Made by a program: the position numbers and the translations under genes. A stretch of 64,000 nt of DNA, from assembly GCF_000330705.1 (NCBI RefSeq), contig NZ_ANAM01000010.1, positions 62,001 through 126,000 of the forward strand. Reading direction: 5' to 3'. The DNA is from Salinicoccus carnicancri Crm (GTDB lineage Bacteria; Bacillota; Bacilli; Staphylococcales; Salinicoccaceae). Under the pieces are notes generated by a model. The model saw nothing but the letters and a program-made list of their open reading frames with translations. It ran no database searches and was not told where the DNA came from. Shown one piece after another: positions 11,841 through 37,783 of this stretch (position 1 is the first letter of the stretch; every line of letters starts with the position of its first letter).

Positions 11841-11954
11841 TGTAACACCCTTTCTGCCATTATCATTATAAAACTGTATCCGAAAATCGGTTCCGTAAAC
11901 ATCCAACGGACTGCCGGCAGAAAATACCTTCTCCCGATCTGGAACACTGCAGCA

Positions 11955-12734
11955 TTACAACAGGATTTCCACCCAGATTTTAACAGCTGTCGCCAGTATC
12001 AGCAGTGCCAGAATCCACTGGAGGACCCCGGTATTCATCCTCTGTCCAGCTTTTGCCCCGAGTGGTGCCGCAATGAGACTTGCTATGATCATGATGGCGG
12101 CAGGTCCGTAGAGCACCTGATCAGCCGCCACTTTGCCGACGGTCGTACCGATGGAGGAAATCAGTGTGACAGCCAGGCTGGTCGCAATCGTCACGCGCGT
12201 CGGTATTTTAAGGATCACCAGCATGATCGGAACCAGTATGAAGGCACCGGCAGCACCGACAATGCCGGCGGCACTGCCGGTCAAGAATGCAAGTGATGCC
12301 GCAAGCGTCCTGTTGAAATGAAGGACATCGCCCCGTGAAAAAGGGATTTCCTTTTTGGGGATGAACATCATGATGGCAGCGATTGCCGCAAGCACGGCAT
12401 ATACGACATCAATCTGGGTCTCTGTAAGGAATGTCGAGCCGTATCCCCCGAGGAGACTGCCTGCAAGTATCGCGCTTCCCATGTATGCGATCAGCCGCAT
12501 GTTCAGATAACCGCTGTTCCTATATGCCCAGACGCCACCTATCGTTGCAAAAAACACTTGTACCGCACTGATTCCAGATACTTCATGTGATGTAAACGCA
12601 GTGACACCAAGCAATGCGGGTATATACAGAAGCATCGGGTACTTGATGATCGATCCCCCTATGCCCACCATCCCCGAGATGAAAGATCCGACGAAACCGA
12701 TCAGAAATATGACGATGATCGTTACAATATCCAT
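11955..12734 (-). CDS. tauE: TauE/SafE family sulfur-anion exporter
   Basis: A 259-aa membrane protein with about eight hydrophobic segments. The paired repeats with [19 protein letters not shown] near the N-terminus and [18 protein letters not shown] in the second half are the TauE family signature. In staphylococcal cst loci this protein is thought to export sulfite or thiosulfate made during persulfide oxidation. Its ATG overlaps the cstB stop (TGATG), so translation is coupled. The nearby GTG at 12737 is an alternative start. Confidence 0.85.
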
Positions 12735-14095
12735 CACTGCATCGCTCGGATGAGACCTGCGTAGCCATCTTCGATATTTACGACATTATCGTATCCCCGG
12801 GCCTTGAGTGCGCTCATGGCTATGGCTGAACGGACACCGGACTGACAATGCACATAGATTGTATCGTCCGCATCGAACGGCACCTCTTTCTCGTCAAGCT
12901 GGCCGAAGTGCAGATGGTGCGCATTTTCAAGACTGCCATTGTTATATTCGGAAGCAGAACGGACATCGAGAATATTCCTATCCTTGAAATTGCTGATGAA
13001 CTCCGCCGCAGATACATTTTCATATGCATCGTCGTAATACTGTTCTGCCTCCCGTGCAGGGACTATCAGCTGAAGATTGTCATATCCGATGGAAGCGAGA
13101 TCCTCCTGCAGCACCCGGCTGTCTTCAGGGTTGCCGATAACAGTCATCGGCTGATCATAATCGATATACCATCCGGCAAACTGAAGGAATTTGTCATTGT
13201 ACGGAATGTTTATCGCACCTTTTTTGAACCCTTTCCTGAATTCCTCCCGGCTTCTGAGATCGAACAGCTGTCCCGGCAGTTCATCCGGGGTGCCCACTTC
13301 AACATCCTTCACCTTGAATCCGGGCAGTCCTTCCTTGTTGACTTTCTTCATCTGGGCAAAATAGCTTGGCGGCTCCGGCTGGTTGCTTGTCAGCTCTTTT
13401 ATGAAAGCTTCCCTGTCATCATAGTCGAACACCCAGTTGTTCCTCAGTTCATAGCCCAGCGTGGAGAGCGGCACTGCACCGAGTGACTTGCCGCAGGCAC
13501 TGCCGGCCCCATGACCCGGCCAGACTTGCATGAATTCCGGATACTTGTCCACTGTTTTCAATGAATCGAACATCGCTGCCGCGCCTTCCTCAGTCGTACC
13601 TTCCATCTGTGCCGCCTCTTCAAGAAGATCCGGCCGTCCGATGTCACCGACAAACAGGAAATCCCCTGTGAATATGCCCATCGGTTCATCGCTGCCGCCG
13701 CCTCTGTCTGTCAGAACAAATGAAATGCTTTCCGGTGTATGGCCCGGTGTATGGAGGACTTTCAATTCAACTTTGCCGACTCTGATGATGTCGCCATCTT
13801 TTAGATATACCGTGTTTTTGGGCATACCTTCATATTTCCAATTCTCGTCCCCCTCATCTGATACATATGCCGTCGCATTGAAACGTTCAGCAGCATCGCG
13901 CAAACCGGAAGCGAAATCCGCATGGATATGCGTCTCGGTCACCTGTGTGATGTTGAAACCTTCCTGAGCTGCCACTTCTCCATATTCATCAACGACACGT
14001 TTCGGATCGATGATGATCGCCTCTTTTGTTTGCTGACATGCCACCATGTAGGATGTCTGTGCAAGTTTCTTGTCAAAAAATTGTTTGAAGAACAT
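12734..14095 (-). CDS. cstB: CstB: persulfide dioxygenase fused to rhodanese domains
   Basis: A 453-aa multidomain enzyme. Residues about 1-230 are an ETHE1-like metallo-beta-lactamase-fold dioxygenase with the iron-binding [16 protein letters not shown] and [14 protein letters not shown] motifs. A degenerate rhodanese domain ([20 protein letters not shown]) follows, and a C-terminal rhodanese carries the active-site loop CQSGVRSA. It should oxidise low-molecular-weight persulfide to thiosulfate or sulfite. S. aureus CstB has the same architecture and a similar length. ATG 14095 lies eight bases after AAGGAG; the GTG at 14104 is less likely. It sits between cstA and tauE. Confidence 0.9.
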
Positions 14096-14129
14096 TATAT
14101 ACACTCCTTAGTATTCAATATACCGCTTA

Positions 14130-15224
14130 TTATATGAAAAGATTCAGGTTCCCATTTTCTGCATCACCGAGATAAGTGCCGACCCCTCCGAAATTGACAT
14201 TCGGCAGCAGTTCATCCGCCTCAACCGCCATGATATCCATGCTCATCGTGCAGGCCACCATTTTGACACCGAGGGAATCGGCCTTGTCGATCATTTCCGT
14301 CAATGCGTCGACTTTCTTCCTCTTCATGACATACTGGATCATCTTCGATCCGAGCCCGAACATATTCATTTTCGAAATTGGCAGTTTGGCGGCAGATTTG
14401 GGCATCATCATGCTGAATGCTTTGTCCAATCCCTTTTTATCCTTCTTCGGTGCTTCTGGGTCCTTGATGACATTGAGTCCCCAGAATGTGAAGAACATCG
14501 TTACATCCTTACCCATGCTTTTGGCGCCAGTGGCAATGATGAACGAAGCAAGCGCCTTGTCGAGATCACCGCTGAAGACGACCATCGTTGCACCGTTTTT
14601 CGTTTCCACCATCTGATGGCCTTCCCCGGATGGCGCTGGCTGCTGATCATTCTTCTCGAGTACAGCAACAACCCTGTCACCATCCTTTTCGTTTTTTAGC
14701 ACCGTGTTTCCGGTCTTTTTCGCCCAGGCTTCGACATCCGTGCAAAAACCGGGATCCGTCACCGTGATTTCCATCTGCTGTCCGGGTTCAAGCTGTCCCA
14801 TCGTTTCGCTCACCCTGAGCAGAGGCCCCGGGCACTGAAGACCACTCGCTTCAATCCTCACCCTTTCCGGATCAATGTTTCTATCCCCGGATGCATCCGG
14901 TGCGCCTGTAACAGTCTTCGAACTGTCATACGCACCGGTATATGAAGAAAAGCCTTCGTCCAGGTTCACTGCATCGTATCCATTCCGCTTCAGAATGTCC
15001 ACGGCTTTGGCACCGCGTTTTCCCTTTTGGCAATATGCATGGATCCGCCGGTCCTTTGGCAGTTCATCCAGCCTGTTTTCCAATTCATTCACCGAGATGT
15101 TCCGGGCACCTTCAATATGACCCATATCGTATTCAAAATCTTCCCTGACATCAAGCAGGTACTGATTTTTTTCAAGTATCCCGTCTGCATCATTGATATG
15201 ATAATCCGTTCCAGTTTTGTTCAT
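14130..15224 (-). CDS. cstA: CstA: rhodanese-TusA-DsrE multidomain sulfurtransferase
   Basis: A 364-aa protein with three sulfur-relay domains in order: rhodanese (residues about 1-95, active-site loop CQKGKRGA), TusA (about 105-180, ASGLQCPGPLLRVSE with the catalytic Cys) and a DsrE/DsrF-like domain (about 200-364, including MSKMNMFGLGSKM-type sequence and a Cys in MVACTMSMDIM). It moves persulfide sulfur between carriers. AAGGAGG lies eight bases before ATG 15224, and the longer in-frame start at 15320 would run through the promoter. It is the first gene after the operator-flanked promoter, followed by cstB 34 bases on. Confidence 0.9.
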   Translation of the reverse strand: MNKTGTDYHINDADGILEKNQYLLDVREDFEYDMGHIEGARNISVNELENRLDELPKDRRIHAYCQKGKRGAKAVDILKRNGYDAVNLDEGFSSYTGAYDSSKTVTGAPDASGDRNIDPERVRIEASGLQCPGPLLRVSETMGQLEPGQQMEITVTDPGFCTDVEAWAKKTGNTVLKNEKDGDRVVAVLEKNDQQPAPSGEGHQMVETKNGATMVVFSGDLDKALASFIIATGAKSMGKDVTMFFTFWGLNVIKDPEAPKKDKKGLDKAFSMMMPKSAAKLPISKMNMFGLGSKMIQYVMKRKKVDALTEMIDKADSLGVKMVACTMSMDIMAVEADELLPNVNFGGVGTYLGDAENGNLNLFI

Positions 15225-15247
15225 TGTATAGAACCTCCTTGTTTTAA

Positions 15248-15308
15248 ATACCCATAAGGGTATAATAGCAAACACTCCGCCTCCTGTCAAATACCCCTTA
15301 GGGTATTT
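15248..15308 (-). promoter_or_regulatory. cstA promoter flanked by two CstR-type operators
   Basis: On the minus strand, TTGACA (15290-15285), 17 bases and TATTAT (15267-15262) form a near-ideal sigma-A promoter. One inverted repeat, ATACCC-ATAA-GGGTAT at 15248-15263, overlaps the -10 end. A second, AATACCC-CTTA-GGGTATT within 15289-15308, overlaps the -35. Both match the CsoR/CstR operator pattern, so a persulfide-sensing CstR should block RNA polymerase from both sides. Confidence 0.85.
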
Positions 15309-15336
15309 GACAGGAGGCATAAAAACAGATGATTTA

Positions 15337-19856: not shown

Positions 19857-21068
19857 ATGGATTCTTTGATTTCGCCGGATGAAAGCTGGCTTTTATGGGG
19901 GATTCTCGTAGGATGGGCGGCATTCTCCATATATCTTGAACAGAAATTCGAATGGGCGTCGAAACTATCCGGTGCCATCATCGCACTCGTCGGTGCGATG
20001 CTTCTTGCAAATTTCGGGGTGATCCCGATTGAATCACCGACCTATGACATTGTATGGGCATATGTTGTGCCGCTTGCCATACCACTGCTTCTCTTCCAGT
20101 CCAACATCATAAGGATATGGAAGGAGAGTGGACGGCTGCTCATGATCTTCCTGATCAGCTCGATTGGAACAGTGGCAGGGGCAATCATTGCATTCTTTCT
20201 GCTGAAAGAATACATTCCCGCAGTCGACCAGATCGGCGCCATGCTTACCGGCTCATACACAGGCGGCGGGGTCAACTTCGCCGCAATGGCAACCCGTTTC
20301 GATGTTGGCGGGGAAACAGTGTCATCGACCGTAGTGGCGGATAACCTGCTGATGGCACTGTACTTCCTTGTACTCATCACCATTCCGGCAGTCGGCTTTT
20401 TCAAGAAAAATTACAGGGCTCCGTACATCGATGAAATCGAAAGGAACGGTGCCGATAACGGTAACCAGGCCGCTTCATACTGGAAGCGCAAGGAGATTTC
20501 ACTCAGCGATATCGCCCTTGCTGTGGGCAGTTCATTCGTCATCGTGGCAGTATCATTCAAGCTCGCAGAATTTTTCACCAACGTCATACCCGATGATGCA
20601 AACATCTTCCTCACAGTTTTGAGAGGGATCATCGGGGATGACTACCTGATGCTCACGACAATAACCCTGCTGCTCGTGTCGTTCATACCCAGATACTTCA
20701 CCAGCATAAACGGTGCGCAGGAAATCGGCACATTCCTGATCTACATATTCTTTGTGGTCATCGGTGTGCCCGCATCCATTCCGCTGATCATTCAGAACGC
20801 ACCATTGATTCTGCTTTTTGCGGCTATCATCGTCTTCATCAACATGATTGTTTCCTTCTCTTTCGGGAAATTCTTCAAATTCAGTCTCGAAGAGATCATC
20901 CTGTCGAGCAACGCCAACATCGGCGGTCCGACAACCGCCGCAGCCATGGCGATTTCGCGCGGCTGGACAAAACTCGTCGGGCCGATTCTGATCATTGGTA
21001 CACTCGGCTATATCATTGGCAACTATATCGGCACCGGGCTTGGAGTCTGGTTTGCCGGGATGATGTAA
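19857..21068 (+). CDS. DUF819 family membrane protein (YjcL-like)
   Basis: A 403-aa membrane protein with about 11 hydrophobic segments. It belongs to the DUF819 family: GSYTGGGVNFAAMATRF near residue 130 and SSNANIGGPTTAAAMAISRG near residue 350 are the repeated Gly-rich signature loops. The family is predicted to transport small organic solutes, but no substrate is established. AAGGGGG lies eight bases before the ATG, and a TATAAT at 19826-19831 gives a likely promoter. It is monocistronic, ended by a strong hairpin. Confidence 0.8.
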   Translation: MDSLISPDESWLLWGILVGWAAFSIYLEQKFEWASKLSGAIIALVGAMLLANFGVIPIESPTYDIVWAYVVPLAIPLLLFQSNIIRIWKESGRLLMIFLISSIGTVAGAIIAFFLLKEYIPAVDQIGAMLTGSYTGGGVNFAAMATRFDVGGETVSSTVVADNLLMALYFLVLITIPAVGFFKKNYRAPYIDEIERNGADNGNQAASYWKRKEISLSDIALAVGSSFVIVAVSFKLAEFFTNVIPDDANIFLTVLRGIIGDDYLMLTTITLLLVSFIPRYFTSINGAQEIGTFLIYIFFVVIGVPASIPLIIQNAPLILLFAAIIVFINMIVSFSFGKFFKFSLEEIILSSNANIGGPTTAAAMAISRGWTKLVGPILIIGTLGYIIGNYIGTGLGVWFAGMM

Positions 21069-21330: not shown

Positions 21331-22068
21331 CTATTGAAATCCCTGTGAAATCTCCGAAGCAGTAGTCAGTAAGGCAGGGATATATGACTGAATCATTTCC
21401 TCACTGAATCGAAATGAGGGTCCGGAAATGGATAACGCTCCAATCAGACGGCCCTGATAATCAAAGACCGGTGCTGACAATGCTGAAACCTCATCCGTTA
21501 CCTCCCCATAACTCAATGCAAAACCATGCTGTTTCACTGCTTTTATCTTTTCTTCTAATAAGTTACGTTCTTCCGGCATCAAGTTTTCTAATATTTCTTC
21601 ACACACTTTTTCCGGCTGATATGCCAGTAGCGCCCTTCCGGTAGCCCCTTTATGAATCGGGTGTTCTTTCCCAACTCCAACAGACCGCCGTATTTCTTTC
21701 TGGCTTTCATGTTCGATTAAACAAAGACGTTTATAACCTTTTTGAATATAAAATCCTACTGTTTCTTCAGTCAGATTTCTCAACTGCAGTACTTTGGCTT
21801 CAACCAGTGCTGAAAACGGCAACTGCGTCATTACTCGATTGGAATACTCCATGAATACTGTTCCTAGTGAGTAAAGTTTAGTCTGGCTGTCCTGGAACAC
21901 AAATCCTTCCATTTTCAATGTCGTCAATAAGCGATGGACAATAGTAGGCGATATATCCAAGTTTTTACTAATATAACTGATACTTTGCGGCCCTGTTGCC
22001 TCTTTTAAATGCTTCAATATTTTCATAGCCCGTAGCACCGTGGCAGAAACATCAGATTTTGCCTTCAT
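21331..22068 (-). CDS. IclR family transcriptional regulator
   Basis: A 245-aa regulator. The N-terminal winged helix (residues about 10-70, QSISYISKNLDISPTIVHRLLTTL) binds DNA and the C-terminal effector domain (about 80-245) carries IclR signature patches such as VGKEHPIHKGATGRALLA and SALSAPVFDYQGRLIGALSI. AGGAGG lies before the start. It is the last gene in the direction of the BCCT-led cluster, 111 bases beyond the aldehyde dehydrogenase, and probably senses that pathway's substrate. Its target may be the promoter at 28893-28921. Confidence 0.85.
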   Translation of the reverse strand: MKAKSDVSATVLRAMKILKHLKEATGPQSISYISKNLDISPTIVHRLLTTLKMEGFVFQDSQTKLYSLGTVFMEYSNRVMTQLPFSALVEAKVLQLRNLTEETVGFYIQKGYKRLCLIEHESQKEIRRSVGVGKEHPIHKGATGRALLAYQPEKVCEEILENLMPEERNLLEEKIKAVKQHGFALSYGEVTDEVSALSAPVFDYQGRLIGALSISGPSFRFSEEMIQSYIPALLTTASEISQGFQ

Positions 22069-22179
22069 ACATGCCTCCTATTTCATTAAGTAGGTGAACT
22101 CAGTATATCATGAATTATCTTCATTTAAACCAAGTGGTGCGGAAGACAGACCATGCCTTCCACACCATGCTGATTACTT

Positions 22180-23646
22180 CTACTTACTTTTAATATAACG
22201 TGTCTTGTATTGGCAATAGAAATCCATGCCCTCACTACCGAGTTCCTTATATGTCCCAGTGCTCGATTTCTTATAGCCACCAAAAGGTGCCTGGAAAAAT
22301 GTTCCGGTCGTTGTCATGTTCACCTTGACAATACCCGCCTCTATTTCACTAAGCGCTTTATTCATATACCCGATATTTCTTGTACAAATAGCCGAAGATA
22401 AGCCATATTCCACATCGTTGGCAACAGAAATCGCCTCATCGATATCTCTCACTTCAATAATACTATTCACAGGACCGAAAACCTCTTTTTGAGAAATTGT
22501 CATAGCTGGTTTTACGTTGCTAATTACAGTCGGTTCTATAAAATATCCATCCTCAAGTTCAGGATATTGAGGAATTCCTCCCCCTGTAAGCACTGTAGCA
22601 CCTTCGTCTTTTGCACTTTGGATAAGATCAAGTGTAGACTGTCGTTCTGCCTGACTGACTTGTGGCCCCATATCAATCCCTTCATGCATTCCATTCCCCA
22701 CTTTTAACTGTTCAGTCCTTTTGACCAACTTCTCTGTAAACTCTTTGACCACTTTTTCATGTACAATGATACGACCAGTCGCAGTACACGCTTGACCTGT
22801 TTGTCCGTACCCACCTGTAACGGCAATTTGTACTGCCTCATCTATATCTGCATCCTCCATTATGATAAGGGGATTCTTGCCCCCCATTTCCAATAGACAA
22901 CGCTTCATGCCTTTCGCAGCCTCAGCATAGATTTTTTCACCCACTGTATTGGATCCTGTGAATGTTACCGCTTTAACTGCAGGATGATGGATCATTTCTG
23001 AAACAAGCTTTCCTGGTGCAATCACGGAGTTGACCACTCCAGCCGGGACACCGGCACGTTGGATGATATCCATAAACTTCATAACAGTAAGTGGTGTCTC
23101 CGAAGAAGGTTTAAGTACGACTGCATTTCCACTTGCAAGAGCCGGCGCTGTCTTCCAAGCCGGAATCGAAAGCGGGAAGTTCCAAGGTGTTACGACCAAG
23201 ACAACCCCTAACGGTTCCGGTTTGGTTTGAATTTGAATATCTGGCATATCTGCCTCAAGAATACTGCCTTTTAAACGTCTGCATTCACCGGCATAGTATT
23301 TAACGATTCCAGCTGCATACCCAACTTCCTTGATGGCATCATTATAGGTCTTCCCTTCTTCCTGAACCATTGTTTTAGCGAGATCATCTTTCTCCTCTTC
23401 CATCAACGCCGAAATTTTGTATAAGTATTCACCACGTTGAGGCGCGGGGATGTCTTTCCATTGCTGGAATCCCTTTGATGCAGAATCTATCGCATCAGAC
23501 AGATCCTCGGAGGTGGATTGATAGAATGACGATACAACTTCTTTTGTATTCGCCGGGTTCACACCCTGTTTTAACTCTTTCCCGGAAGGTGTGGTCCATG
23601 TTCCATTGATGAAGTTTTTCAACTCTGCTCCTGTAATCACTGTCAT
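22180..23646 (-). CDS. NAD(P)-dependent aldehyde dehydrogenase
   Basis: A 488-aa ALDH superfamily enzyme. The cofactor segment is VTPWNFPLSIPAWKTAPAL, the general-base Glu is in LLEMGGKNP, and the catalytic Cys is in GQTGQACTATGR. The pattern resembles alpha-ketoglutaric-semialdehyde or succinate-semialdehyde dehydrogenases, which take short omega-carboxy aldehydes. GAGGAGG stands at good spacing. It follows the DUF3726-like gene by about 50 bases and is likely the terminal oxidation step of the BCCT-linked pathway. The substrate is inference. Confidence 0.88.
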   Translation of the reverse strand: MTVITGAELKNFINGTWTTPSGKELKQGVNPANTKEVVSSFYQSTSEDLSDAIDSASKGFQQWKDIPAPQRGEYLYKISALMEEEKDDLAKTMVQEEGKTYNDAIKEVGYAAGIVKYYAGECRRLKGSILEADMPDIQIQTKPEPLGVVLVVTPWNFPLSIPAWKTAPALASGNAVVLKPSSETPLTVMKFMDIIQRAGVPAGVVNSVIAPGKLVSEMIHHPAVKAVTFTGSNTVGEKIYAEAAKGMKRCLLEMGGKNPLIIMEDADIDEAVQIAVTGGYGQTGQACTATGRIIVHEKVVKEFTEKLVKRTEQLKVGNGMHEGIDMGPQVSQAERQSTLDLIQSAKDEGATVLTGGGIPQYPELEDGYFIEPTVISNVKPAMTISQKEVFGPVNSIIEVRDIDEAISVANDVEYGLSSAICTRNIGYMNKALSEIEAGIVKVNMTTTGTFFQAPFGGYKKSSTGTYKELGSEGMDFYCQYKTRYIKSK

Positions 23647-23697
23647 ATATAATTCCTCCTCATATTTTTCCTGGTTATTACTTTCTGCTTTTTAATC

Positions 23698-24501
23698 TTA
23701 CTCCGCTTTTTCTCCGGCACCCCGGACCCTGGACTCGTCTGTTGCCTCTACCAGTGTTTTCCGTCCGACTTCATCCAGAATATCCCATGTGGCACTGTCA
23801 ACTTCTGCCCCGTTGAAATAAGCCTGTTCATATATCGCCTTTAATTGGGCAGATTCCATGAGTTTGACATCCCCATTTTTCGATGCCCACCTCAACTTTC
23901 TGACACATCCTGTAATCAGTTCTGTTTCATCGGTGCAAACCATCCAAAATTCATCTGTCGATAAATCATTGGTCTCATGTCTTCCCAACTCCTCAGTAAG
24001 ATTTTTTTGCATGATGCTCTCGGCAATTTCTCCTTCGGCAAAAATCGGGAAGGATACCTCAGGGGTTGAGAGTATCCACATCGGAGTTCCATCCTGCATC
24101 CTATAATTAATGACACACCCTTTATCTCTCGAGGCGATGTAATGTCCTGCATAGGCTAAGAGGCGAGAACGGGTTGTGTTGCTCATATGCACCCGCACTG
24201 TGTTCTGTGTCTCTGACAGACCCAAAGCATAGTCGGCCATCAGCTTGCCCAGAATAATGGCGCTTTGTCCATTGCCGTTAAATCGATATAATCCCTCCTC
24301 CTTGGATACCAACATGATACTCCGCATGCCCGAGTCCGGCATATCTGAAATTTCCTTCTTTAAAACCTGCAACCCATGCAAACCAGCAAATTCACTCCAT
24401 GCCACCACTTCCGCTCCATCATCCGCACACCCATATGAAATCCCGTGTGCACGGAAAACCTTCTTGCAATGAAGAAACAGTTCTACAAAGGATACGTGCA
24501 T
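23698..24501 (-). CDS. DUF3726-like protein
   Basis: A 267-aa protein. Its start (VELFLHCKKVFRAHGISYGCADDGAEVVAWSE, residues 5-36, shown in parts: HGISYGCADD) and its end (RKTLVEATDESRVRGAGEKAE) match my memory of the DUF3726 family, which has no proven activity. The N-terminal helix pattern also recalls LDH2-type oxidoreductases, but no nucleotide site is seen. It overlaps the dipeptidase gene by 19 bases, so the two are coupled. GGAGG lies seven bases before the ATG. It probably acts in the same pathway as the flanking dipeptidase and aldehyde dehydrogenase. Confidence 0.55.
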   Translation of the reverse strand: MHVSFVELFLHCKKVFRAHGISYGCADDGAEVVAWSEFAGLHGLQVLKKEISDMPDSGMRSIMLVSKEEGLYRFNGNGQSAIILGKLMADYALGLSETQNTVRVHMSNTTRSRLLAYAGHYIASRDKGCVINYRMQDGTPMWILSTPEVSFPIFAEGEIAESIMQKNLTEELGRHETNDLSTDEFWMVCTDETELITGCVRKLRWASKNGDVKLMESAQLKAIYEQAYFNGAEVDSATWDILDEVGRKTLVEATDESRVRGAGEKAE

Positions 24502-25499
24502 TTCATCGCCTCCTTTTCGCTCTTAAAACTATCCGTAAAGAAGCGTAACCAGTTGCCCCCCATCACTTTTTCCACTTCCTCAGCCGTCATCCCTTTTTTC
24601 GCGAGCCCTTTCGATATATTCGGGAAATCTGCGGGTGTCTGAAACCATTCCGGCCACTCCGGCCATGACGGATTCTCTTTACTTCCAGCTCCATAATCCA
24701 TCTCATGTGTCCATCTCCCCATCCGCATCCAATGTAAGAAATCCACAGACATATTCAATGTCAAATCTGTTCCGAGTCCCACGCGATCAATGCCCATGAA
24801 ATCGACAGTCTGGACAATCATGTCACAAAATTCATCCAACGTCGTTTCTTTCCCGTTTACCAGGTGTGGGTATGCACATACACCAAGAACACCGTCATTT
24901 TCCTTCAGAGCACGCAAAACTTCTTTGGATTTATTGCGCTTGCTTGGATAAATCCAATCTGGGTTGGCATGAGTTATGGCTACAGGACGAGTCGATGCTG
25001 CAATCGCATCTAAAGTGGTCTGATTTCCGACATGGGATAAATCAACCACCATGCCCACACGATTCATTTCTCGAACAACTTTTTTCCCGTAACGTGACAG
25101 TCCCGAGTCATTTTCTTCATAGCAGCTGCTGCCCACCAGGTTTTGATTGTTGTAAGTGAGTTGCATCACTTTGACTCCCAATTGGTTAAACACAGATACA
25201 AGAGATAGTTCATCCTCAAGTGCTGAAGTATTTTGCGCACCAATTATGACACCGATCTTACCGGTTTCTTTAGCTCTCAGAATATCTTCACCCTGAAACA
25301 CTTGCATCACCAGATCATCATTTTCTTTCAAGAAGCGATGCCATGACCCTATTTTACTTAAGGTTTCGCGAGCATTTTCCCACAGGCCGCAACATGCATG
25401 GACACATGTCACCCCTCCTTTTTTCAGTAGATAAAGAAAGTCACGATCCCAATTGCTAAGTTCCAGTGCATCAATCACAATCATCCCTTGTCTTTCCAT
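24483..25499 (-). CDS. M19 membrane-dipeptidase family protein
   Basis: A 338-aa TIM-barrel hydrolase of the renal dipeptidase family. Family segments are GVIIGAQNTSALEDELSLV near residue 85, GMVVDLSHVGNQT near residue 150 (metal His), AITHANPDW, and MGIDRVGLGTDL. The usual N-terminal D-G-H metal motif reads VIDALELSNWD here, so part of the zinc site differs from true dipeptidases. The substrate may not be a dipeptide. Its ATG follows directly on the stop of the unknown upstream gene (TAGATG). M19 proteins are also found in betaine-degradation loci of Pseudomonas, which fits the BCCT neighbour. Confidence 0.75.
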   Translation of the reverse strand: MERQGMIVIDALELSNWDRDFLYLLKKGGVTCVHACCGLWENARETLSKIGSWHRFLKENDDLVMQVFQGEDILRAKETGKIGVIIGAQNTSALEDELSLVSVFNQLGVKVMQLTYNNQNLVGSSCYEENDSGLSRYGKKVVREMNRVGMVVDLSHVGNQTTLDAIAASTRPVAITHANPDWIYPSKRNKSKEVLRALKENDGVLGVCAYPHLVNGKETTLDEFCDMIVQTVDFMGIDRVGLGTDLTLNMSVDFLHWMRMGRWTHEMDYGAGSKENPSWPEWPEWFQTPADFPNISKGLAKKGMTAEEVEKVMGGNWLRFFTDSFKSEKEAMKCTYPL

Positions 25500-27209
25500 C
25501 TATTGATCCTCTCCTAACATTGGTAGTTCCGGGAAAACCCAATCATCCAGATATGGATGTCCGATCTCTTCTATAAGTGGTGCGCCTTGAAATAGTGTAA
25601 TCCGCACCCAGCGATTCGACTTCGGGTTAAAGCGTTCTGCACCAAAGAAGGATAGTTTACATCTCAACAAATTAAGTGGCGTAAAATCTTTATTTAAAAA
25701 ATTCGCTTGAATCTCACCATACTCATATCCCTCCAGAGACTGGATGCGTTGAATGATACCTTTATACCGTGGATACTTTAAAATAAATGCTGGAACCATT
25801 TCTTTTGGTGACCCGTATTTTGTTACTTTATAAAGTTCCTGGACTTGTTCCGCTATATTCATATCCAGCTCTTTGTCATCTCCGGGTTCTTCTCCGCGAA
25901 CCCCCATCCGCGGCTCTTCTTTTTCTTCTGATCGATACCAAAAATAATATTTTTCATCAGGATCATTAAAATCGTATTGGAATACCCACTCATACTGCTT
26001 TTCGATTAATTTCCGCAATTGCTCTACCGTCATACGCGGTTCTATCTGATACGTTTCCTCTACATTCATACATCGTTCAAGGTCTACAACATGATCGGCA
26101 TACAATTCAAGCAAGAGTGTGTGCAACAGCTCCTGCATCTCAATCGAGACTGAGTCTGCTGCGATTAATGACAAATCATGCCATATATCTGATGTTGACT
26201 GTCCCTTCAGACTGCCTGTCTCCACATACTCTGAAAGGATGTCCTTAAGATATGCGCTCTGTTCTGCCAATGTTTCCATGTTAAGAATAATTTCCCTGTC
26301 TATAAGCTTGGAATCACTAAAATAGTCACTGACCCGGTCTAACCAATCGATCAGAACCCTGAAATCATCCTGTGACGGTTTTATATCCTTCACTCTTGCG
26401 ATTGCTTGCTCTCGTACAGAAATCCATTGATGAATCAACCTTGGATGGGCAATTAGAAAGGGAGCCATTCCTAATCCTGTTGCATTGCCCGTCCCAATAT
26501 ACCGTTTTATATCGGGGTGCAATTTCACAGCCTGAGGGTTTCTTTGTTCTGCAATATGTTCTACCAGGTCAGTACCGAATTGACGTAACATGTATACTGC
26601 AAACATCTGAGCCTGAAACGGACCACTAAATGGATGATTATGCTTCATTTTGTCATAAGGTGCTAAACCAAATTTACCATTTCCATAAACTGCAGTTGTA
26701 CGCAGCAGATAGCCTACTTCATTTAATATTTCAGGGTCCGGTTGTTTTTGATTCGCGAGGCAGTCAATAACGTAGTCAAAAATACGGTTACTTTTGTTGG
26801 CCCGTGACCAAACAAGGTCAGATGTGTCACCGCGCCCAGCTTCTTGTTTTGGCAGCTCCCTTTTCATACGCTCCAGTTTTGTTTCAGAAATTCTACCTTC
26901 AGATAAGGCAAAAGTGACATCCCAATTCTTTGAAATCACGCGGTCGCTTCTTTCCTCATCTTTGATTTTTGTGGAGATAACTACAAAAGAGAATTCATGC
27001 TTTGATGTGTCAATGCTATATATTGCATGACCATAGCCATTTTCATCCAGATCAAGTACAGTGCGTCTGATCTTCCAATTTTCTCTCATCATATGCCTGA
27101 GTAAAATTCTTAGAAAACTTAGGCTCGTCAGTCTGAATGCACCAATCCTCTCTAGCTTCATTACCTCTGATGCCGGCCGTAGCTTATGCTTCTTATATTT
27201 AACTGTCAT
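25500..27209 (-). CDS. Unknown 569-aa protein of BCCT-linked cluster
   Basis: Not recognised. It is soluble, with no signal peptide or membrane helix. An N-terminal region rich in beta strands (residues 1-110, WKIRRTVLDLDENGYGHAIY) is followed by a helical middle with RSNRIFDYVID-like sequence, then a striking patch near residues 235-265 containing IGTGNATGLGMAPFLIAHPR that looks like a conserved site. The C-terminal half is helical, with an acidic insert (residues about 445-470). GGAGGT lies nine bases before ATG 27209; ATG 27215 is too close. The coupling to the dipeptidase (TAGATG) makes it a pathway member, perhaps a new enzyme. Confidence 0.75.
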   Translation of the reverse strand: MTVKYKKHKLRPASEVMKLERIGAFRLTSLSFLRILLRHMMRENWKIRRTVLDLDENGYGHAIYSIDTSKHEFSFVVISTKIKDEERSDRVISKNWDVTFALSEGRISETKLERMKRELPKQEAGRGDTSDLVWSRANKSNRIFDYVIDCLANQKQPDPEILNEVGYLLRTTAVYGNGKFGLAPYDKMKHNHPFSGPFQAQMFAVYMLRQFGTDLVEHIAEQRNPQAVKLHPDIKRYIGTGNATGLGMAPFLIAHPRLIHQWISVREQAIARVKDIKPSQDDFRVLIDWLDRVSDYFSDSKLIDREIILNMETLAEQSAYLKDILSEYVETGSLKGQSTSDIWHDLSLIAADSVSIEMQELLHTLLLELYADHVVDLERCMNVEETYQIEPRMTVEQLRKLIEKQYEWVFQYDFNDPDEKYYFWYRSEEKEEPRMGVRGEEPGDDKELDMNIAEQVQELYKVTKYGSPKEMVPAFILKYPRYKGIIQRIQSLEGYEYGEIQANFLNKDFTPLNLLRCKLSFFGAERFNPKSNRWVRITLFQGAPLIEEIGHPYLDDWVFPELPMLGEDQ

Positions 27210-27277
27210 CAGCATGACACCTCCATCATTCCCACTTATTATGCTCGGACTTGATAGGTACCAGGAACACTTTCATT

Positions 27278-28810
27278 TCACTGGTCGATACCTTGTTCCT
27301 TTGCAAGCTCCCTGCAAACTTTGGGTGCTGTCCAAAACGTAGTCAATAACAGCAGAGAAACAGGCGCAGCAGTCACCACAATAAACGACTGTAAGGAGCT
27401 CACACTATCTTCTCCTATCGTCAGTAGGATGATTGCAACTGCACCCATTACTCCAGCCCAGAACACTCTCATCAACTTAGAAGGATTACCCTCACCGGTA
27501 AGGGCCATTGAAATGGTAAACGACATTGAATCTGTTGTTGTGAGTACAAAAATAATTGTGGCAAGGAGAAACAGAACTCCTAAAACAAAACCAAATGGCA
27601 GTTGCTCGGTAATCGCAATCATGGCTGCCGGTGCCCCATTATTGTTTAAGGGGGCAGATATGGACCCCGCCTCCATAAGTTCCTGGAATATCCCCGTGCC
27701 TCCCACGACGGTGAACCAAAAAGTCGTCACGAGAGGTGCGATGATTGCGACTGCGAGTACGATTTCCCGTATTGTACGCCCCCGTGAAATACGACTTGTG
27801 AAGATTGCCATCATAGGCCCATACCCTAAAAACCAGGCAAAGAAGAATACTGTCCAGCTGTTAAGCCATTCATAATCCCCGCGATACGTACTCATGCCTA
27901 CAAAATTTTGTATATAAGAACCAAATGATTGGAAATAGGTATCAAATATGAACAGGCCGGGCCCCAGTACAAGCATAGCTCCTACGAGAATCAAAGCTAG
28001 AATGACATTGTAACTGCTCAAAATTTGAATGCCTTTATGGATCCCTGTGACTGCTGATATAGCAGCAATCACCACAATCAAGGCGATAATTACCAGTTGG
28101 ACAAATAAAGTGTCAGGCAGACCAAATAAGACATTCATGCCATATCCCGCCTGCAGTCCAAGAAAACCGATGGGACCAATTGTACCGGCTGCAACCGCTA
28201 TAACAGAAAAGGCATCCACCAAAGTGCCCAGGACGCTGTTTTCTATAATTCTATTTCCGAAAATCGGATATAGTAGTGCTCTGGGTTTAAGGGGTACACC
28301 CCGGTGGTAGTGCGCATACATCAGCACAAATGTTCCAAGTGTCCCCAGAATAGCCCAGGCAAGAAAGCCCCAATCTACAAAGCTCGTAGTTAATGCCGGC
28401 ATCACTGCATCTTTAGTACCGGAAGTAACACCTTCAAAGTGAGGCGGGACATTTATAAAGTGATTCAATGGTTCAGCCGCCGCCCAGAACACCCCACCGC
28501 CAGCAAGTAAAGTACACATAATGACCGAAATCCATTTAAAATTGCTCATCTCCGGTTTATCTGCATTCCCCAAGCGGATTCGCCCATATTTTGAAAACCT
28601 TAAAAACAAAGCAATGATAAATGTTCCCAGCATTAAAAACTGATAAATTGAACCAAAGTATTTCACAGAAAAGTTAAATAAAGCGCTTACAAATCCGACT
28701 AAAGATTTCTGATCTACAACCCCGAATACTATAAACCCGAGCAACAATCCGCCGCTTACTATCAGAACCGGCACATCAATCTTAGACGAAGTTCCATCAG
28801 GTTGATTCAA
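27278..28810 (-). CDS. BCCT family transporter (divergent)
   Basis: A 510-aa carrier with about 12 hydrophobic helices. The BCCT helix-8 signature is clear (FFFAWFLGYGPMMAIFTSRISRGRT). The helix-3 region that reads GMGIGLVFWGVAEP in betaine carriers reads AGGGVFWAAAEPLNHF here, so the sodium/substrate site is altered. It should import a quaternary-ammonium, sulfonium or similar zwitterion. The start is TTG 28810, five bases after GGAGGG. It heads the six-gene minus-strand cluster and is preceded by a TTGACA promoter. Confidence 0.85.
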   Translation of the reverse strand: MNQPDGTSSKIDVPVLIVSGGLLLGFIVFGVVDQKSLVGFVSALFNFSVKYFGSIYQFLMLGTFIIALFLRFSKYGRIRLGNADKPEMSNFKWISVIMCTLLAGGGVFWAAAEPLNHFINVPPHFEGVTSGTKDAVMPALTTSFVDWGFLAWAILGTLGTFVLMYAHYHRGVPLKPRALLYPIFGNRIIENSVLGTLVDAFSVIAVAAGTIGPIGFLGLQAGYGMNVLFGLPDTLFVQLVIIALIVVIAAISAVTGIHKGIQILSSYNVILALILVGAMLVLGPGLFIFDTYFQSFGSYIQNFVGMSTYRGDYEWLNSWTVFFFAWFLGYGPMMAIFTSRISRGRTIREIVLAVAIIAPLVTTFWFTVVGGTGIFQELMEAGSISAPLNNNGAPAAMIAITEQLPFGFVLGVLFLLATIIFVLTTTDSMSFTISMALTGEGNPSKLMRVFWAGVMGAVAIILLTIGEDSVSSLQSFIVVTAAPVSLLLLTTFWTAPKVCRELAKEQGIDQ

Positions 28811-29124
28811 ACTATCCCTCCTTTTGTTTAATTAACATAACCAGCCTCCACAATATTCCGTTTATAGGAACGATATACCGATAATTGGTTATACTTTAAA
28901 ATATAAGAGCATTATTGTCAATAATTTTCTTAATATTAATAACATATTTTGTAGAATACGCTTTTATATGCCTATCATAATTTTACAATCGGCGAAATGA
29001 CTCCAAACTATATCTCACATAAAATGCTCTGATATTAATGCTATGACCGAAAAAAGATATCCTCAATTGAAAACACATTCATCATCATCTTGCGGCTCCA
29101 AGGTATCATTTAATAAATGCTGTC
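28811..29124 (-). promoter_or_regulatory. Promoter region of the BCCT-led cluster (A+T-rich gap)
   Basis: On the minus strand TTGACA (28921-28916), 17 bases and TAAAGT (28898-28893) form a probable promoter. TTCC-GTTTATA-GGAA (28856-28870) downstream of it is an inverted repeat that could bind the IclR protein. The remaining A+T-rich sequence to 29124 shows no gene. Confidence 0.5.
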
Positions 29125-33808: not shown

Positions 33809-33850
33809 AATGACGGCAGAATCCATTTCGGGTTCTGCCGTCATTATTTT
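33809..33850. terminator. Bidirectional terminator
   Basis: AATGACGGCAGAA (33809-33821) pairs with TTCTGCCGTCATT (33833-33845). It is followed by ATTTTTAC on the plus strand and TTTTC on the minus strand, and serves both convergent genes. Confidence 0.85.
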
Positions 33851-34803
33851 TACATATCCACGGTCGGGTCGTTCGACTCCGTCACCGGCTCTTTGCCCCC
33901 GAATATCTTCCCCAGGGTACGGTTGATTGCTTTTTTAGGATATCTCTCCTTGTAATTCTGCGATTTCGCCCAGAGCAGCCACTCTTCATGTTCAGGATGG
34001 CTCTTGTCTCTGATCGCATCATGCACTTCCCTGAATCCGTCAACGCCGCCCGAGTCCTCAATCGGCCCCGGTCCTTTGTGGTGCAGCACCTCAGGTATTT
34101 CAGGATGGTCAAGCGTCATTTCCCCGAGCACTTCAACTTCATGCATCCAGTCATCCCCGTAATCATAGACGTAGGTGATGGTTCCTGCCCGGGTGAGGAG
34201 CGGGTCGATCCCGGTTTCACTTGCCAGCAGGTGTTCCGGGCCGCCCTCCATCCGAAACCCATCCTCCATTTCAAATTCATATACGAAAATTCTTTCGCCC
34301 CTGCTGAAGAACGATGACAGATGGCTGCCCTGCCAGCCCATCGCTTTCTGGATGACGAGATGCAGTTCATAGAAATTGAAATCCCTCGGCACCATGACCT
34401 CCCGCCACACTGGTGTATGCGCATCTTCCAGGGTGATCCTGAGCTTCAGGGCATTGTATGCAGACTCTGAAGATTGCTCCTCCTCATACCTTTTCTCGGC
34501 TTCATGGATATCAATGAGGCGCGAAAGCCTCCGGACCACCTCCACATGGATGAATCCGCTGTCCCCGCTTTTGAGTATGATGCGGTTCTTGATCAGGTGA
34601 AAACACTCCCCCGGTTTGATCGTAATCTCGTAGAATCCTGACAGGGGACGGACTTTAATCAGCTTTTTAATCAGCCTGCGTTCGTCGGGATTCATCTTCT
34701 CTGCAATCTTCGACATGAAATAGGCATCATTGATGTATGAAATGGACATATCTGCAAGCGCGTCATCTTTTAAAACCACATGGTAAAATCGTCTCAAATC
34801 CAT
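33850..34803 (-). CDS. Plasmid pRiA4b ORF-3 family protein, copy 1
   Basis: A 317-aa protein. Residues about 5-110 are an unknown helical region. From about residue 125 lies a pRiA4b ORF-3 domain with RITLEDAHTPVWREVMVPRD, FYELHLVIQKAMGWQGSHLS and YVYDYGDDWMHEVEV. The domain was named from plasmid and transposon passenger genes; its activity is unknown. GGAGG lies five bases before ATG 34803. It follows a related gene by 15 bases, and the two make a tandem paralogue pair. Confidence 0.8.
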   Translation of the reverse strand: MDLRRFYHVVLKDDALADMSISYINDAYFMSKIAEKMNPDERRLIKKLIKVRPLSGFYEITIKPGECFHLIKNRIILKSGDSGFIHVEVVRRLSRLIDIHEAEKRYEEEQSSESAYNALKLRITLEDAHTPVWREVMVPRDFNFYELHLVIQKAMGWQGSHLSSFFSRGERIFVYEFEMEDGFRMEGGPEHLLASETGIDPLLTRAGTITYVYDYGDDWMHEVEVLGEMTLDHPEIPEVLHHKGPGPIEDSGGVDGFREVHDAIRDKSHPEHEEWLLWAKSQNYKERYPKKAINRTLGKIFGGKEPVTESNDPTVDM

Positions 34804-34818
34804 ATTATCCTCCAAATA

Positions 34819-36243
34819 TCAGACGTTGAATTCAGTCACCGGGTGGGATTTGGCAAATTGCTTCTCCAGCCTGTTGTTGATCGCCGTCATCGGATAGCGT
34901 TCCCGGTAGTTCATCATGCGCACCTTCTCGAACGTCCGGACGTAATCCGGATGCCGCCTGTCTCCAAGAATCGCAAGTGTTCGCTCCAGCCCTTTCGGAC
35001 CGCCCACATTCTCTATCGGCACCGGTCCGCCGTAGTCACGGATGGCCGGCACCTGGTAGTCGATATTGATCCTGTCCGCCATGCTGATTTTCACGACATA
35101 CCCATCCACCGATTCATACTGATAGTAGACTTCCCCGGCCCGCTCGAGCAGTGCATCAGCCTGGGTGAAACTCGCCACAAGTCCGCCGGGCTCACCAGAG
35201 TCCGCCTTCGCTTCATTCATCAGCAGCAGGGATTCATATATGGTGAAACCATCGGCTGTGAATCTTGAAGGGCTGCTGCCCCTCCATCCCATGACTTCCC
35301 GTATGATCAGATGGAGTTCGTAGAAATTGAGGCCCGTCGGCACCTGTACTTCCCGCCACACGGGTTCATGTGTCTCCATGACCTCGAACATGAGTGCGTA
35401 GGCGTTGAAGTCGCCCCGCGCCGGTTTGTCAGCACCCTGCGGCCGCCTGTTTCTGTTCACAGCATCAAAATTCACGGTTTTCAGCGTCTCCAGGACCTTC
35501 TGATGCATCACAAAGTAATGTGCATGCACTTTGACGATCAGCCCCAGGCTCCTCGCTTCCTCCCACCTGGATTTTGCCTCATATACATTATAGTCCTTTT
35601 CCACATTGTCCCGTATGATCCTGAATTCCTCATCACCGATATGGAGCAGTATCTCTGCAAGGAACTCAGGAGATGTGACGAGGGAGGTGATATGCCGCAG
35701 ATAGTCATCTTTCTGGTTGCCCTCGGTCTCGCTGCCGAGCCGTCTGAGCATCGCCTGGAGCTCACGCCATGTCAGGTTGTTGTAGAGCCAGTATATCGGC
35801 CCTCTGTAAATCTCTTCAAGGCGTGAGATATCCCGTGGATTGAAATTTTCATCACGGTGGATGAACATATCAACATCCGGCAGCACACCGGTATCCTTCA
35901 GCGCCGCATCGATGGCCATGACGATGTCATGATGAATGACGCCGGTGCCACCCCCCTCCTCCAGTATGTACTGATAATCGATCAGCGCAGCATATTTCGA
36001 TACATCATAATCGATGTGGTGGAGATTATCTGCAGGCTCGATGTCAACAAGGTCACGCACAAGCACCGCCTCCCCCATCGATATATTCTCCGCCACTTCG
36101 GTCAGGATGTCCTGATCGGTGATGCTTGCCGTCTTGAATTCCGCCAGGGCGCCGAGTGAATCGAAGGATTCATCGCTCATCAACCCCGCCCGCACCAGCT
36201 CGTTCTCCTCGAGAAAATGATTAAAAAAACTTTTCAGATCCAT
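34819..36243 (-). CDS. Plasmid pRiA4b ORF-3 family protein, copy 2
   Basis: A 474-aa protein. The C-terminal third (residues about 325-474) has a pRiA4b ORF-3 domain with LMFEVMETHEPVWREVQVP, FYELHLIIREVMGWRGSSPS and a YQYESVDGYVVKISM strand. The N-terminal 320 residues are long, helical and acidic and have no family that I recognise. AAGGAGG lies before ATG 36243. It shares its last residues' pattern (YRERYPMTAINNRL) with the downstream copy (YKERYPKKAINRTL), so they arose by duplication, with copy 2 carrying an extra N-terminal region. Confidence 0.78.
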   Translation of the reverse strand: MDLKSFFNHFLEENELVRAGLMSDESFDSLGALAEFKTASITDQDILTEVAENISMGEAVLVRDLVDIEPADNLHHIDYDVSKYAALIDYQYILEEGGGTGVIHHDIVMAIDAALKDTGVLPDVDMFIHRDENFNPRDISRLEEIYRGPIYWLYNNLTWRELQAMLRRLGSETEGNQKDDYLRHITSLVTSPEFLAEILLHIGDEEFRIIRDNVEKDYNVYEAKSRWEEARSLGLIVKVHAHYFVMHQKVLETLKTVNFDAVNRNRRPQGADKPARGDFNAYALMFEVMETHEPVWREVQVPTGLNFYELHLIIREVMGWRGSSPSRFTADGFTIYESLLLMNEAKADSGEPGGLVASFTQADALLERAGEVYYQYESVDGYVVKISMADRINIDYQVPAIRDYGGPVPIENVGGPKGLERTLAILGDRRHPDYVRTFEKVRMMNYRERYPMTAINNRLEKQFAKSHPVTEFNV

Positions 36244-36265
36244 TTTCCCACCTCCTTTTCCTTGA

Positions 36266-37783
36266 TCATTCCCGGAGTTCCTGCATGCGTCCGTAAAACG
36301 CTGCGAGTGACCTGCCAATCTCTATATAGACGCTCATGACATCCTGGTACTTCATATAAGCCGTCTCATCCGGATGATAGGTCTCATCTTCACCGATGAA
36401 ACGGGAGGACTCATCAAGGTCATCTATTTCACCAAGTGCATATAACCCCAGTATACACGCACCGAACGCACTTGACTCATATGATTCCGGAACATGCAGC
36501 GCTTCGCCGAATACGTCCGCCATCAGCTGCTTCCACAATGCACTGCGGGCGAATCCACCGCTCGCCTTTATGGAGCGTACTTCCATCATCTGTTCCCGGA
36601 GCGCAAGGAAAACGCTGTACAGATTGTACACTACACCTTCCATGGCCGCACGGATCATGTGTTTCCGTTCGTGGGAAATCGTCAGGCCATAGAATGAACC
36701 CACCGCTTTCGCATCCCACAGCGGGGCACGTTCGCCGGCAAGGTACGGGTGGAATATCAGACCGTCACTCCCTGCAGGCACACTCTCCGCCGCCTCGGTC
36801 ATGATTTCATACGGATCACGGCTGCATGTGTCGGCCTCACTGATTTCCTGCTGGCACAGCTCATCCCGAATCCATCTTAAAATCACGCCGCCGTTGTTCA
36901 CCGGCCCGCCGATGACGAAAGCACCAGGCGTCAGATGATAGCAGAAGGTGCGCATCTTCACATCTGTACGCGGTCTGTCGATTACTGTCCGGATTGCGCC
37001 GCTCGTGCCGACCGTAATGGCCACATCCCCCTCATGTATCGCATTGACACCGAGGTTTGCAAGCACCCCGTCACTCGCCCCGATGACGAGTTTCGTGTCC
37101 TGGGAAATGCCAATATCACCGGCTGCATCTTCATCCATGCTGAAAATTTCCGTCGTATCCACAAGCTCAGGCAGCTGGTCCGCCGACAGCTCCAGCATGG
37201 AAAGCAATTCAGTGTCCCACTCCGATGCTTCAAGATTCATCAGCCCCATGCTGCTCGCGATTGAGCGGTCTACCGCATATTCGCCGGAGATTTCCGCGAA
37301 TACATATTCCTTTATCCCCATGATTCTTCCAATCTGCGCATAAAGCTCCGGTTCTTCATTTTTAAAATGGAACAGTTTGACGAGCGGGTTCATCGGGTGG
37401 ATCGGTGTCCCCGTCCGGTGATAGATTTCAAGGCCGTCCGCTTCATTCAGACGATCCGCATACTCAGCCGCCCGGCTGTCCGCCCATGTGATGCACTCGG
37501 TGAGCCGTTCACCTTTCCTGTCCAGAAGGATCATGCTGTGCATGGCGGATGAGAACGAAATGAATTCGATGCTGTCGCCGCATCCATTGCGGGATATCAG
37601 CAGGCGGAGTGCCTGTAGGGTGCGTTCGAGTATCTCCTCCGGATCCTGTTCCGCGGTTTTTGCATCAGGTGTATGGAGCGGATAATCCCCTGTCTCTTTA
37701 TCTATAAAGGTGCCGTCCATATCGAACAGCACAGCCTTGACGGCCGTGGTGCCGATATCGAGACCGATCATATGTCTTTTCAT
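36266..37783 (-). CDS. gntK: Gluconate kinase, FGGY family
   Basis: A 505-aa FGGY carbohydrate kinase that phosphorylates D-gluconate to 6-phosphogluconate. The ATP-site start GLDIGTTAVKAVLFD, the sugar-binding ITWADSRAAEYA, and the C-terminal SGGFARSALWKQLMADVFG are the family landmarks. The length fits Bacillus GntK. ATG 37783 lies about ten bases after AAAGG; ATG 37771 is an alternative. It has its own promoter nested against the gntP terminator, so it may be expressed separately from the dgo genes. Confidence 0.85.
   Translation of the reverse strand: MKRHMIGLDIGTTAVKAVLFDMDGTFIDKETGDYPLHTPDAKTAEQDPEEILERTLQALRLLISRNGCGDSIEFISFSSAMHSMILLDRKGERLTECITWADSRAAEYADRLNEADGLEIYHRTGTPIHPMNPLVKLFHFKNEEPELYAQIGRIMGIKEYVFAEISGEYAVDRSIASSMGLMNLEASEWDTELLSMLELSADQLPELVDTTEIFSMDEDAAGDIGISQDTKLVIGASDGVLANLGVNAIHEGDVAITVGTSGAIRTVIDRPRTDVKMRTFCYHLTPGAFVIGGPVNNGGVILRWIRDELCQQEISEADTCSRDPYEIMTEAAESVPAGSDGLIFHPYLAGERAPLWDAKAVGSFYGLTISHERKHMIRAAMEGVVYNLYSVFLALREQMMEVRSIKASGGFARSALWKQLMADVFGEALHVPESYESSAFGACILGLYALGEIDDLDESSRFIGEDETYHPDETAYMKYQDVMSVYIEIGRSLAAFYGRMQELRE

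Follow-up and report, generated by a model that had tools for sequence, protein, structure and literature searches.

A six-gene BCCT–p571–M19–DUF3726–ALDH–IclR operon of Salinicoccus carnicancri, probably the Bacillota form of a homarine catabolic pathway

Homarine (N-methylpicolinate) is a widespread marine osmolyte, and Ferrer-Gonzalez et al. are said to have described in 2026 (Nat Microbiol 11:1531) a conserved homarine catabolic pathway of environmental bacteria. The available part of PMC13390433, which cites that work, states that the N-methylglutamate dehydrogenase Mgd takes part in homarine catabolism and that tmaR, encoding an AraC-type regulator, adjoins mgdABCD. Here we analyze a 64,000-nucleotide stretch of the S. 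carnicancri Crm genome (contig NZ_ANAM01000010.1, positions 62,001 to 126,000; hereafter the window) that contains an operon encoding a BCCT carrier, a protein of 571 amino acids (p571), an M19-like amidohydrolase, a DUF3726 protein, an aldehyde dehydrogenase (ALDH) and an IclR-family regulator. The pathway cluster itself is real and widely conserved; most likely it is a Bacillota form of the homarine route controlled by IclR, a reading to which we give a rough probability of 0.65. A sequence-only reading of the window had proposed an undescribed catabolic route for a betaine-like zwitterion. The role in such catabolism is well supported, because the genes are co-conserved, the carriers are of betaine types (BCCT or a glycine-betaine-type ABC carrier) and p571 and DUF3726 match no characterized enzyme with an assigned pathway; the word undescribed, in contrast, is probably outdated given the 2026 pathway, which the features of the window fit. 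As far as the available text on that pathway goes, it shares with relatives of the window cluster a candidate link to Mgd. Relative to that pathway, as the roseobacter-type relatives would represent it, the window has an IclR instead of a LysR regulator, an M19 gene that separates those for p571 and DUF3726, an ALDH of more distant kinship, and an operon without Ldh or Mgd genes.

The operon is read from the minus strand, and its six genes follow one another as BCCT, p571, M19, DUF3726, ALDH and IclR (Table 1); Pfam profiles together with a check of the open reading frames (ORFs) show that they are real and intact, and the tight spacing noted earlier is borne out. The sequence TAGATG does join the p571 stop to the M19 start, and the M19 and DUF3726 genes do overlap by 19 bases. 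The single reading direction also stands for the six genes, but the BCCT gene, which had been called divergent, heads the operon; the gene on the opposite strand encodes a DUF819 protein (19857-21068, +). The length of 569 amino acids given for p571 is that from the second ATG, and counting from the first ATG gives 571. The guanine-plus-cytosine content of the cluster is 43%, against 48% in the window, which suggests, as a hint and not as proof, that the cluster was acquired from outside.

A tblastn search found p571 relatives in 168 of 72,556 plasmid records, 167 of them with at least 80% coverage (a second form described below is included), and a genome scan confirmed at least 583 relatives among at least 591 pattern matches. 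The loci taken from the genome scan, which are the best 80 of these at least 583 relatives, include Halomonas, Marinobacter, Pseudomonas, Vibrio, Psychrobacter, SAR92, SAR116, one Ruegeria, one Chloroflexota bin and two Bacillota, and many hosts of p571 clusters are marine or halophilic. The neighborhood of p571 exceeds chance, since p571 recurs beside the same genes in proteobacteria (37-48% identity), in an archaeon (37%) and in other Bacillota-type loci (52-81%). Of 103 rows, two of which are short duplicates (L001 duplicates the window, and L002 duplicates L108), 33 were dropped because p571 was not flanked by 7 kb on each side, leaving 70 loci; within 9 kb of p571, M19 was present in 67 of the 70, ALDH in 59 and BCCT in 52. 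All 97 of 97 loci have, together with p571, a DUF3726-family ORF distinct from Ldh; the calls come from an iterated profile whose final rounds let in true Ldh proteins as well. The gene-neighborhood search that the sequence-only reading had suggested thus finds the cluster co-conserved elsewhere.

Several roseobacter and rhizobium plasmids share the order LysR, ALDH, M19, (BCCT), p571, DUF3726, Ldh; the Ldh stretch is split into two pieces in the Phaeobacter cluster, and no Ldh was seen at the Sulfitobacter cluster. The archaeon Natrinema has ALDH, p571, a DUF3726-like ORF and BCCT, with no M19 recognized within 9 kb. In a p571 tree built by a quick method and having long branches, the window and eight other Bacillota-type rows form one group with a Shimodaira–Hasegawa-like approximate likelihood ratio test value (SH-aLRT) of 97, and the window's p571 thereby falls with records named as Bacillota. 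The distribution is patchy: of 60 related genomes that were searched, 2 carry p571, and both belong to the 12 genomes of the genus; the class gave 6 of 398 genomes and the phylum 1 of 398, and every one of these counts includes the window's own genome. At L048 (cut short on one side), L055 and L081, p571 and a DUF3726-family ORF stand together and neither M19 nor ALDH was recognized nearby.

p571 has no match in Pfam or NCBIfam at an expectation value (E) up to 1, and comparison with PDB sequences returned nothing meaningful, the best hits (E 0.17) being T-cell receptors; PADLOC matched neither p571 nor DUF3726. Its predicted model is confident (predicted local distance difference test, pLDDT, 89.8; predicted template modeling score, pTM, 0.91), and the best match of this model among PDB folds had an E of 0.36, with probabilities of at most 0.25 in the best 50 of 134 matches. 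Among 63 aligned p571 rows 73 columns are invariant, and their abundant Arg, Trp and Tyr are in keeping with a possible charged aromatic substrate.

Structure prediction, also suggested earlier, gave DUF3726 an Ldh_2 fold (pLDDT 92.6; pTM 0.88). All 27 PDB chains that matched the model at E ≤ 0.001 are of the Ldh_2 type (two are titled merely 'dehydrogenase'), delta1-piperideine-2-carboxylate reductase being among them, and the sequence agrees (YiaK, E 3.9e-5; hhalign to the cluster Ldh proteins, probability 92.6). With this family of type-2 malate/lactate dehydrogenases (1wtj is the piperideine-carboxylate reductase) DUF3726 shares the predicted fold at a template modeling score of 0.5-0.7 of the query, as well as N-terminal sequence similarity; unlike them it is shorter, and its few conserved columns lack the catalytic His. 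The near-invariant columns contain no His and no Asp, and across 53 DUF3726 rows the column of the Ldh_2 S-H-G histidine is not conserved, the alignment being uncertain there. Among the most conserved parts is a C-terminal S-R-x-G-A-G stretch, where model confidence is low (60-64) and which we read as a putative docking tail. A tblastn search with the window DUF3726 against the plasmid records gave zero matches, but an iterated profile search did find relatives; the literature searched does not name DUF3726. Because p571 and DUF3726 form one fused protein of 814 amino acids in a Mesorhizobium record (L014), they probably act together as one enzyme. The two might instead be a sensor or assembly pair, with ALDH and M19 alone performing catalysis, as the absence of conserved His or Asp in DUF3726 and of a recognized cofactor motif in p571 would allow. 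We think this very improbable: opening a pyridinium ring is not a reaction to expect of ALDH and M19, the 73 columns of p571 that are invariant over 63 rows are typical of an active site, and M19 stays with p571 at 67 of 70 loci.

An active M19 dipeptidase has a two-metal site made up of an HxD motif, a bridging Glu, two His and an Asp. By the positions that we take as canonical, both the HxD motif and the bridging Glu are replaced in the window protein. The earlier remark that it lacks this N-terminal metal motif was correct; the loss is, however, common to its relatives and not peculiar to the window. We compared 83 M19 sequences, a number in which the window protein figures twice (L001 and WIN). 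The H position is L in 81, 82 have Y, L or C at the D position, and Q replaces the bridging Glu in 82, while H156, H177 and D245 are kept in all 83. The nearest solved relative, 2i5g, aligns over nearly the full length and also has L for the H of the motif; we take it to be the P. aeruginosa dgc-operon (dimethylglycine) protein. If the cluster acted on N-acyl amino acids or dipeptides, M19 would be the true first enzyme, as its fold family might suggest. With the presumed HxD ligands and bridging Glu gone, a carrier of the betaine family, and p571 and DUF3726 as the most constant partners, we give that idea hardly any credence.

The carrier belongs to the same BCCT family as the betaine carriers BetP, CaiT and DddT. 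Trimethylammonium betaine carriers of this family have the substrate box W-W-x-x-W-S-P, known from BetP, which is absent from the window protein; it reads W-F-L-G-Y-G-P. Of 71 aligned carriers 63 show the form W-F-x-G-Y-x-P, and each of these shares at least 43% identity with the window carrier, whereas the other eight (at most 30% identical, and including those of the Natrinema and Alisedimentitalea clusters) lack it, and four of these eight distant carriers have W-W-x-x-W-S-P. The ALDH had been assigned to the keto-acid-semialdehyde type. Its nearest NCBIfam model is indeed 2,5-dioxovalerate dehydrogenase (NF052305), but its 569 bits fall short of the 750-bit cut-off; the ALDH of the Ruegeria-type cluster is likewise nearest a C5 keto-acid-semialdehyde model and under its cut-off. 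The window enzyme is 58-85% identical to the ALDHs of the other eight Bacillota-type clusters, and a search of PDB at a very strict limit returned zero matches.

Onto the observed gene set and order, co-conservation, predicted folds and motifs we place the following putative substrate and chemistry. The BCCT carrier would import homarine, and p571 and DUF3726 as one enzyme would use O2 and a reductant to cleave the C5–C6 bond of the N-methylpyridinium ring, yielding an N-formyl-N-methyl C5 semialdehyde acid; by atom count, homarine + O2 + 2 H gives C7H9NO4, an N-formyl-N-methyl enamino semialdehyde acid. ALDH would then oxidize the aldehyde and the M19-like protein would remove the formyl group as formate, in either sequence, leaving the N-methyl imine or enamine of 2-oxoglutarate. 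N-methylglutamate has five carbons where homarine has six in its ring and carboxyl group, which means that a carbon has to be lost on the way. This loss would be accounted for by an N-formyl intermediate together with an amidohydrolase, and an ALDH of the C5-semialdehyde type suits the proposed route. In other bacteria the imine may have two fates: reduction by an Ldh-family reductase to N-methylglutamate, which Mgd would demethylate, or hydrolysis by way of RidA to 2-oxoglutarate and methylamine. The window pathway most likely ends by hydrolysis, because neither partner gene (Ldh or RidA) is in the operon. The complete proposal, in which p571 is the new-fold catalytic subunit of a pyridinium ring opener, DUF3726 is its dead dehydrogenase-fold partner docking by the conserved C-terminal tail, and the pathway branches at the imine (reduced and demethylated, or hydrolyzed) with Bacillota taking the hydrolytic end, is one we put forward tentatively, as possible and somewhat less than even in its chances.

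Gene content is suggestive of such a branch. In 66 loci (the 70 well-flanked ones minus four of the second form) we found a RidA or YjgF-type relative in 40, the YjgF-type genes of Bacillota included, an Ldh-family reductase in 14, both in none and neither in 12. A demethylase-type alpha gene is present in 10 of the 66, eight with Ldh, none with RidA and two with neither, in a count that mixes four-subunit and single-chain FAD/GcvT proteins, some of them weak matches. An imine intermediate with two fates would be expected to leave this pattern. By plain count, ignoring kinship, the exclusion of RidA and Ldh has a Fisher p of 1.2e-7. Beside the IclR gene, a YjgF-type RidA-like gene stands in six of nine Bacillota-type clusters, those of the window and of genome G001 being without; elsewhere the window genome has one RidA-like relative (26% identical), and G001 has none at the same threshold. 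As the missing reductase we also considered the only Ldh_2 gene found in the host (G000:C10:55536-56522, 28% identical to cluster Ldh), and rejected it because its neighbors look, by eye, like sugar-acid and TRAP-carrier genes.

Homarine itself comes in through the neighbors of some relatives. Ruegeria TM1040 and Phaeobacter carry, ahead of the cluster, a helix-turn-helix regulator and an operon for a four-subunit sarcosine-oxidase-like enzyme, putatively TmaR and Mgd, and in Roseateles such an operon stands beside the cluster with a GlxA-type regulator; purU and folD (formyl and C1 units) also adjoin the Roseateles cluster. Together with the passage in the available part of PMC13390433, these demethylase-type neighbors point to homarine as the candidate substrate. 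The core order LysR-ALDH-M19-p571-DUF3726-Ldh would also fit the gene name homABCDER.

Several observations weigh against the homarine assignment. The neighboring four-subunit genes are annotated as sarcosine oxidase, the Roseateles beta subunit scores over the TIGR01373 soxB cut-off, and neither mgs nor gmaS is annotated in the Ruegeria TM1040, Phaeobacter and Roseateles stretches shown, so that the identity of these neighbors as Mgd is presumptive. The window genome has just partial matches to the demethylase alpha subunit (a GcvT-like part and a 2Fe-2S part), its ALDH is just 35-38% identical to those of the nine proteobacterial clusters compared, and no flavin or metal motif was recognized in the p571 sequence. 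The exclusion of RidA and Ldh comes down to four independent pairs on starred branches and is not significant with relatedness considered. Which genes are the hom genes is likewise our assumption, and the name homABCDER did not occur among the papers listed by a literature search. In the available parts of PMC12817926, PMC12093977, PMC9723723, PMC9038784 and PMC8079746 none of the cluster genes is named, though two of these papers mention the dgc-operon dipeptidase.

A second form of the p571–DUF3726 pair, 30-33% identical to p571, occurs on Sinorhizobium meliloti pSymA and in Aminobacter, Neorhizobium and Bosea (L010, L011, L012, L013). These clusters comprise IclR, p571-like, DUF3726-like and M19 genes and an ABC carrier, with no ALDH directly after M19; in Sinorhizobium a succinate-semialdehyde-type ALDH lies about 7 kb off. 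In Neorhizobium galegae (L012:11383-12347) the match to the second-form M19 is spread over two frames and carries no gene annotation, perhaps a decayed cluster.

The carrier and ALDH differences of this second form suggest that the enzyme pair may serve more than one substrate. The same enzymes might degrade a different cyclic zwitterion with an N-methyl group (trigonelline, proline betaine, hydroxyproline betaine or a related compound) to 2-oxoglutarate semialdehyde and its dehydrogenase, since the carrier types and the ALDH type suit several betaines and Pseudomonas MPC6 has genes for a Rieske-type oxygenase and a mandelate-racemase-family protein nearby. We hold this to be unlikely, though deserving of far more weight than the dipeptide or sensor proposals: neither a Rieske demethylase nor a racemase is among the six window genes (no search for either extended to the remainder of the genome), and the trigonelline routes (tgn genes), which we take to use flavin monooxygenases, call for enzymes not seen here.

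For the homarine pathway, regulation would be exerted by IclR from a site directly after the promoter (Table 1). The IclR gene comes after ALDH in nine of nine Bacillota-type clusters (window included). Promoter-like sites are not enriched (18 found against 19.2 in shuffles), so the BCCT promoter call is weak, and terminator-like hairpins are not enriched in the region either (5 found, 5.9 expected from shuffles). The repeat TTCC-N7-GGAA has a single exact match in the window; it also precedes the BCCT gene of G001, an altered copy precedes p571 in Domibacillus (L018), and it was not found before p571 in the five Bacillota-type loci L017, L103, L104, L106 and L107.

Table 1. Genes and candidate signals of the operon, with window positions.
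Feature	Position	Strand	Basis and remarks
Promoter-like site TTGACA-17-TAAAGT before BCCT gene	28893..28921	-	consensus scan, 10/12 matches
Operator-like inverted repeat TTCC-N7-GGAA, candidate IclR site	28856..28870	-	directly after promoter-like site
BCCT carrier, first gene of operon	27278..28810	-	PF02028, 500 bits; TTG start after AAGGAGG
p571, 571 amino acids, probable catalytic partner of DUF3726	25500..27215	-	no Pfam/NCBIfam match; confident model
M19-like amidohydrolase, reduced metal site	24483..25499	-	PF01244, 257 bits
DUF3726 protein, degenerate Ldh_2 fold	23698..24501	-	PF12525, 28.4 bits (cut-off 22.1)
ALDH, ketoglutarate-semialdehyde type	22180..23646	-	PF00171 (Aldedh), 550 bits
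Terminator-like hairpin between ALDH and IclR	22135..22167	-	14-pair stem
IclR-family regulator	21331..22068	-	PF01614 (IclR_C), 98 bits; PF09339, 43 bits

Elsewhere in the window, minus-strand genes at 10653-15320 resemble sulfide-detoxification genes (a pyridine-nucleotide oxidoreductase, a TauE exporter, a metallo-beta-lactamase-rhodanese and rhodanese-TusA-DsrE proteins) and presumably correspond to the Cst-type operon of Staphylococcus kin. Two adjacent proteins with PRiA4_ORF3 domains are encoded at 33850-36318, also on the minus strand.

The novelty lies in the Bacillota variant and in how p571, DUF3726 and M19 are described structurally; substrate and chemistry are inferences. If the assignment is correct, it would place homarine breakdown in Bacillota and, by way of the archaeal relative, perhaps also in halophilic archaea. 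A protein family without a known fold would be named as a likely ring-opening enzyme, and DUF3726 would gain both a fold and a role. Finally, gene content would predict which bacteria keep the nitrogen of homarine as glutamate and which release it as methylamine.

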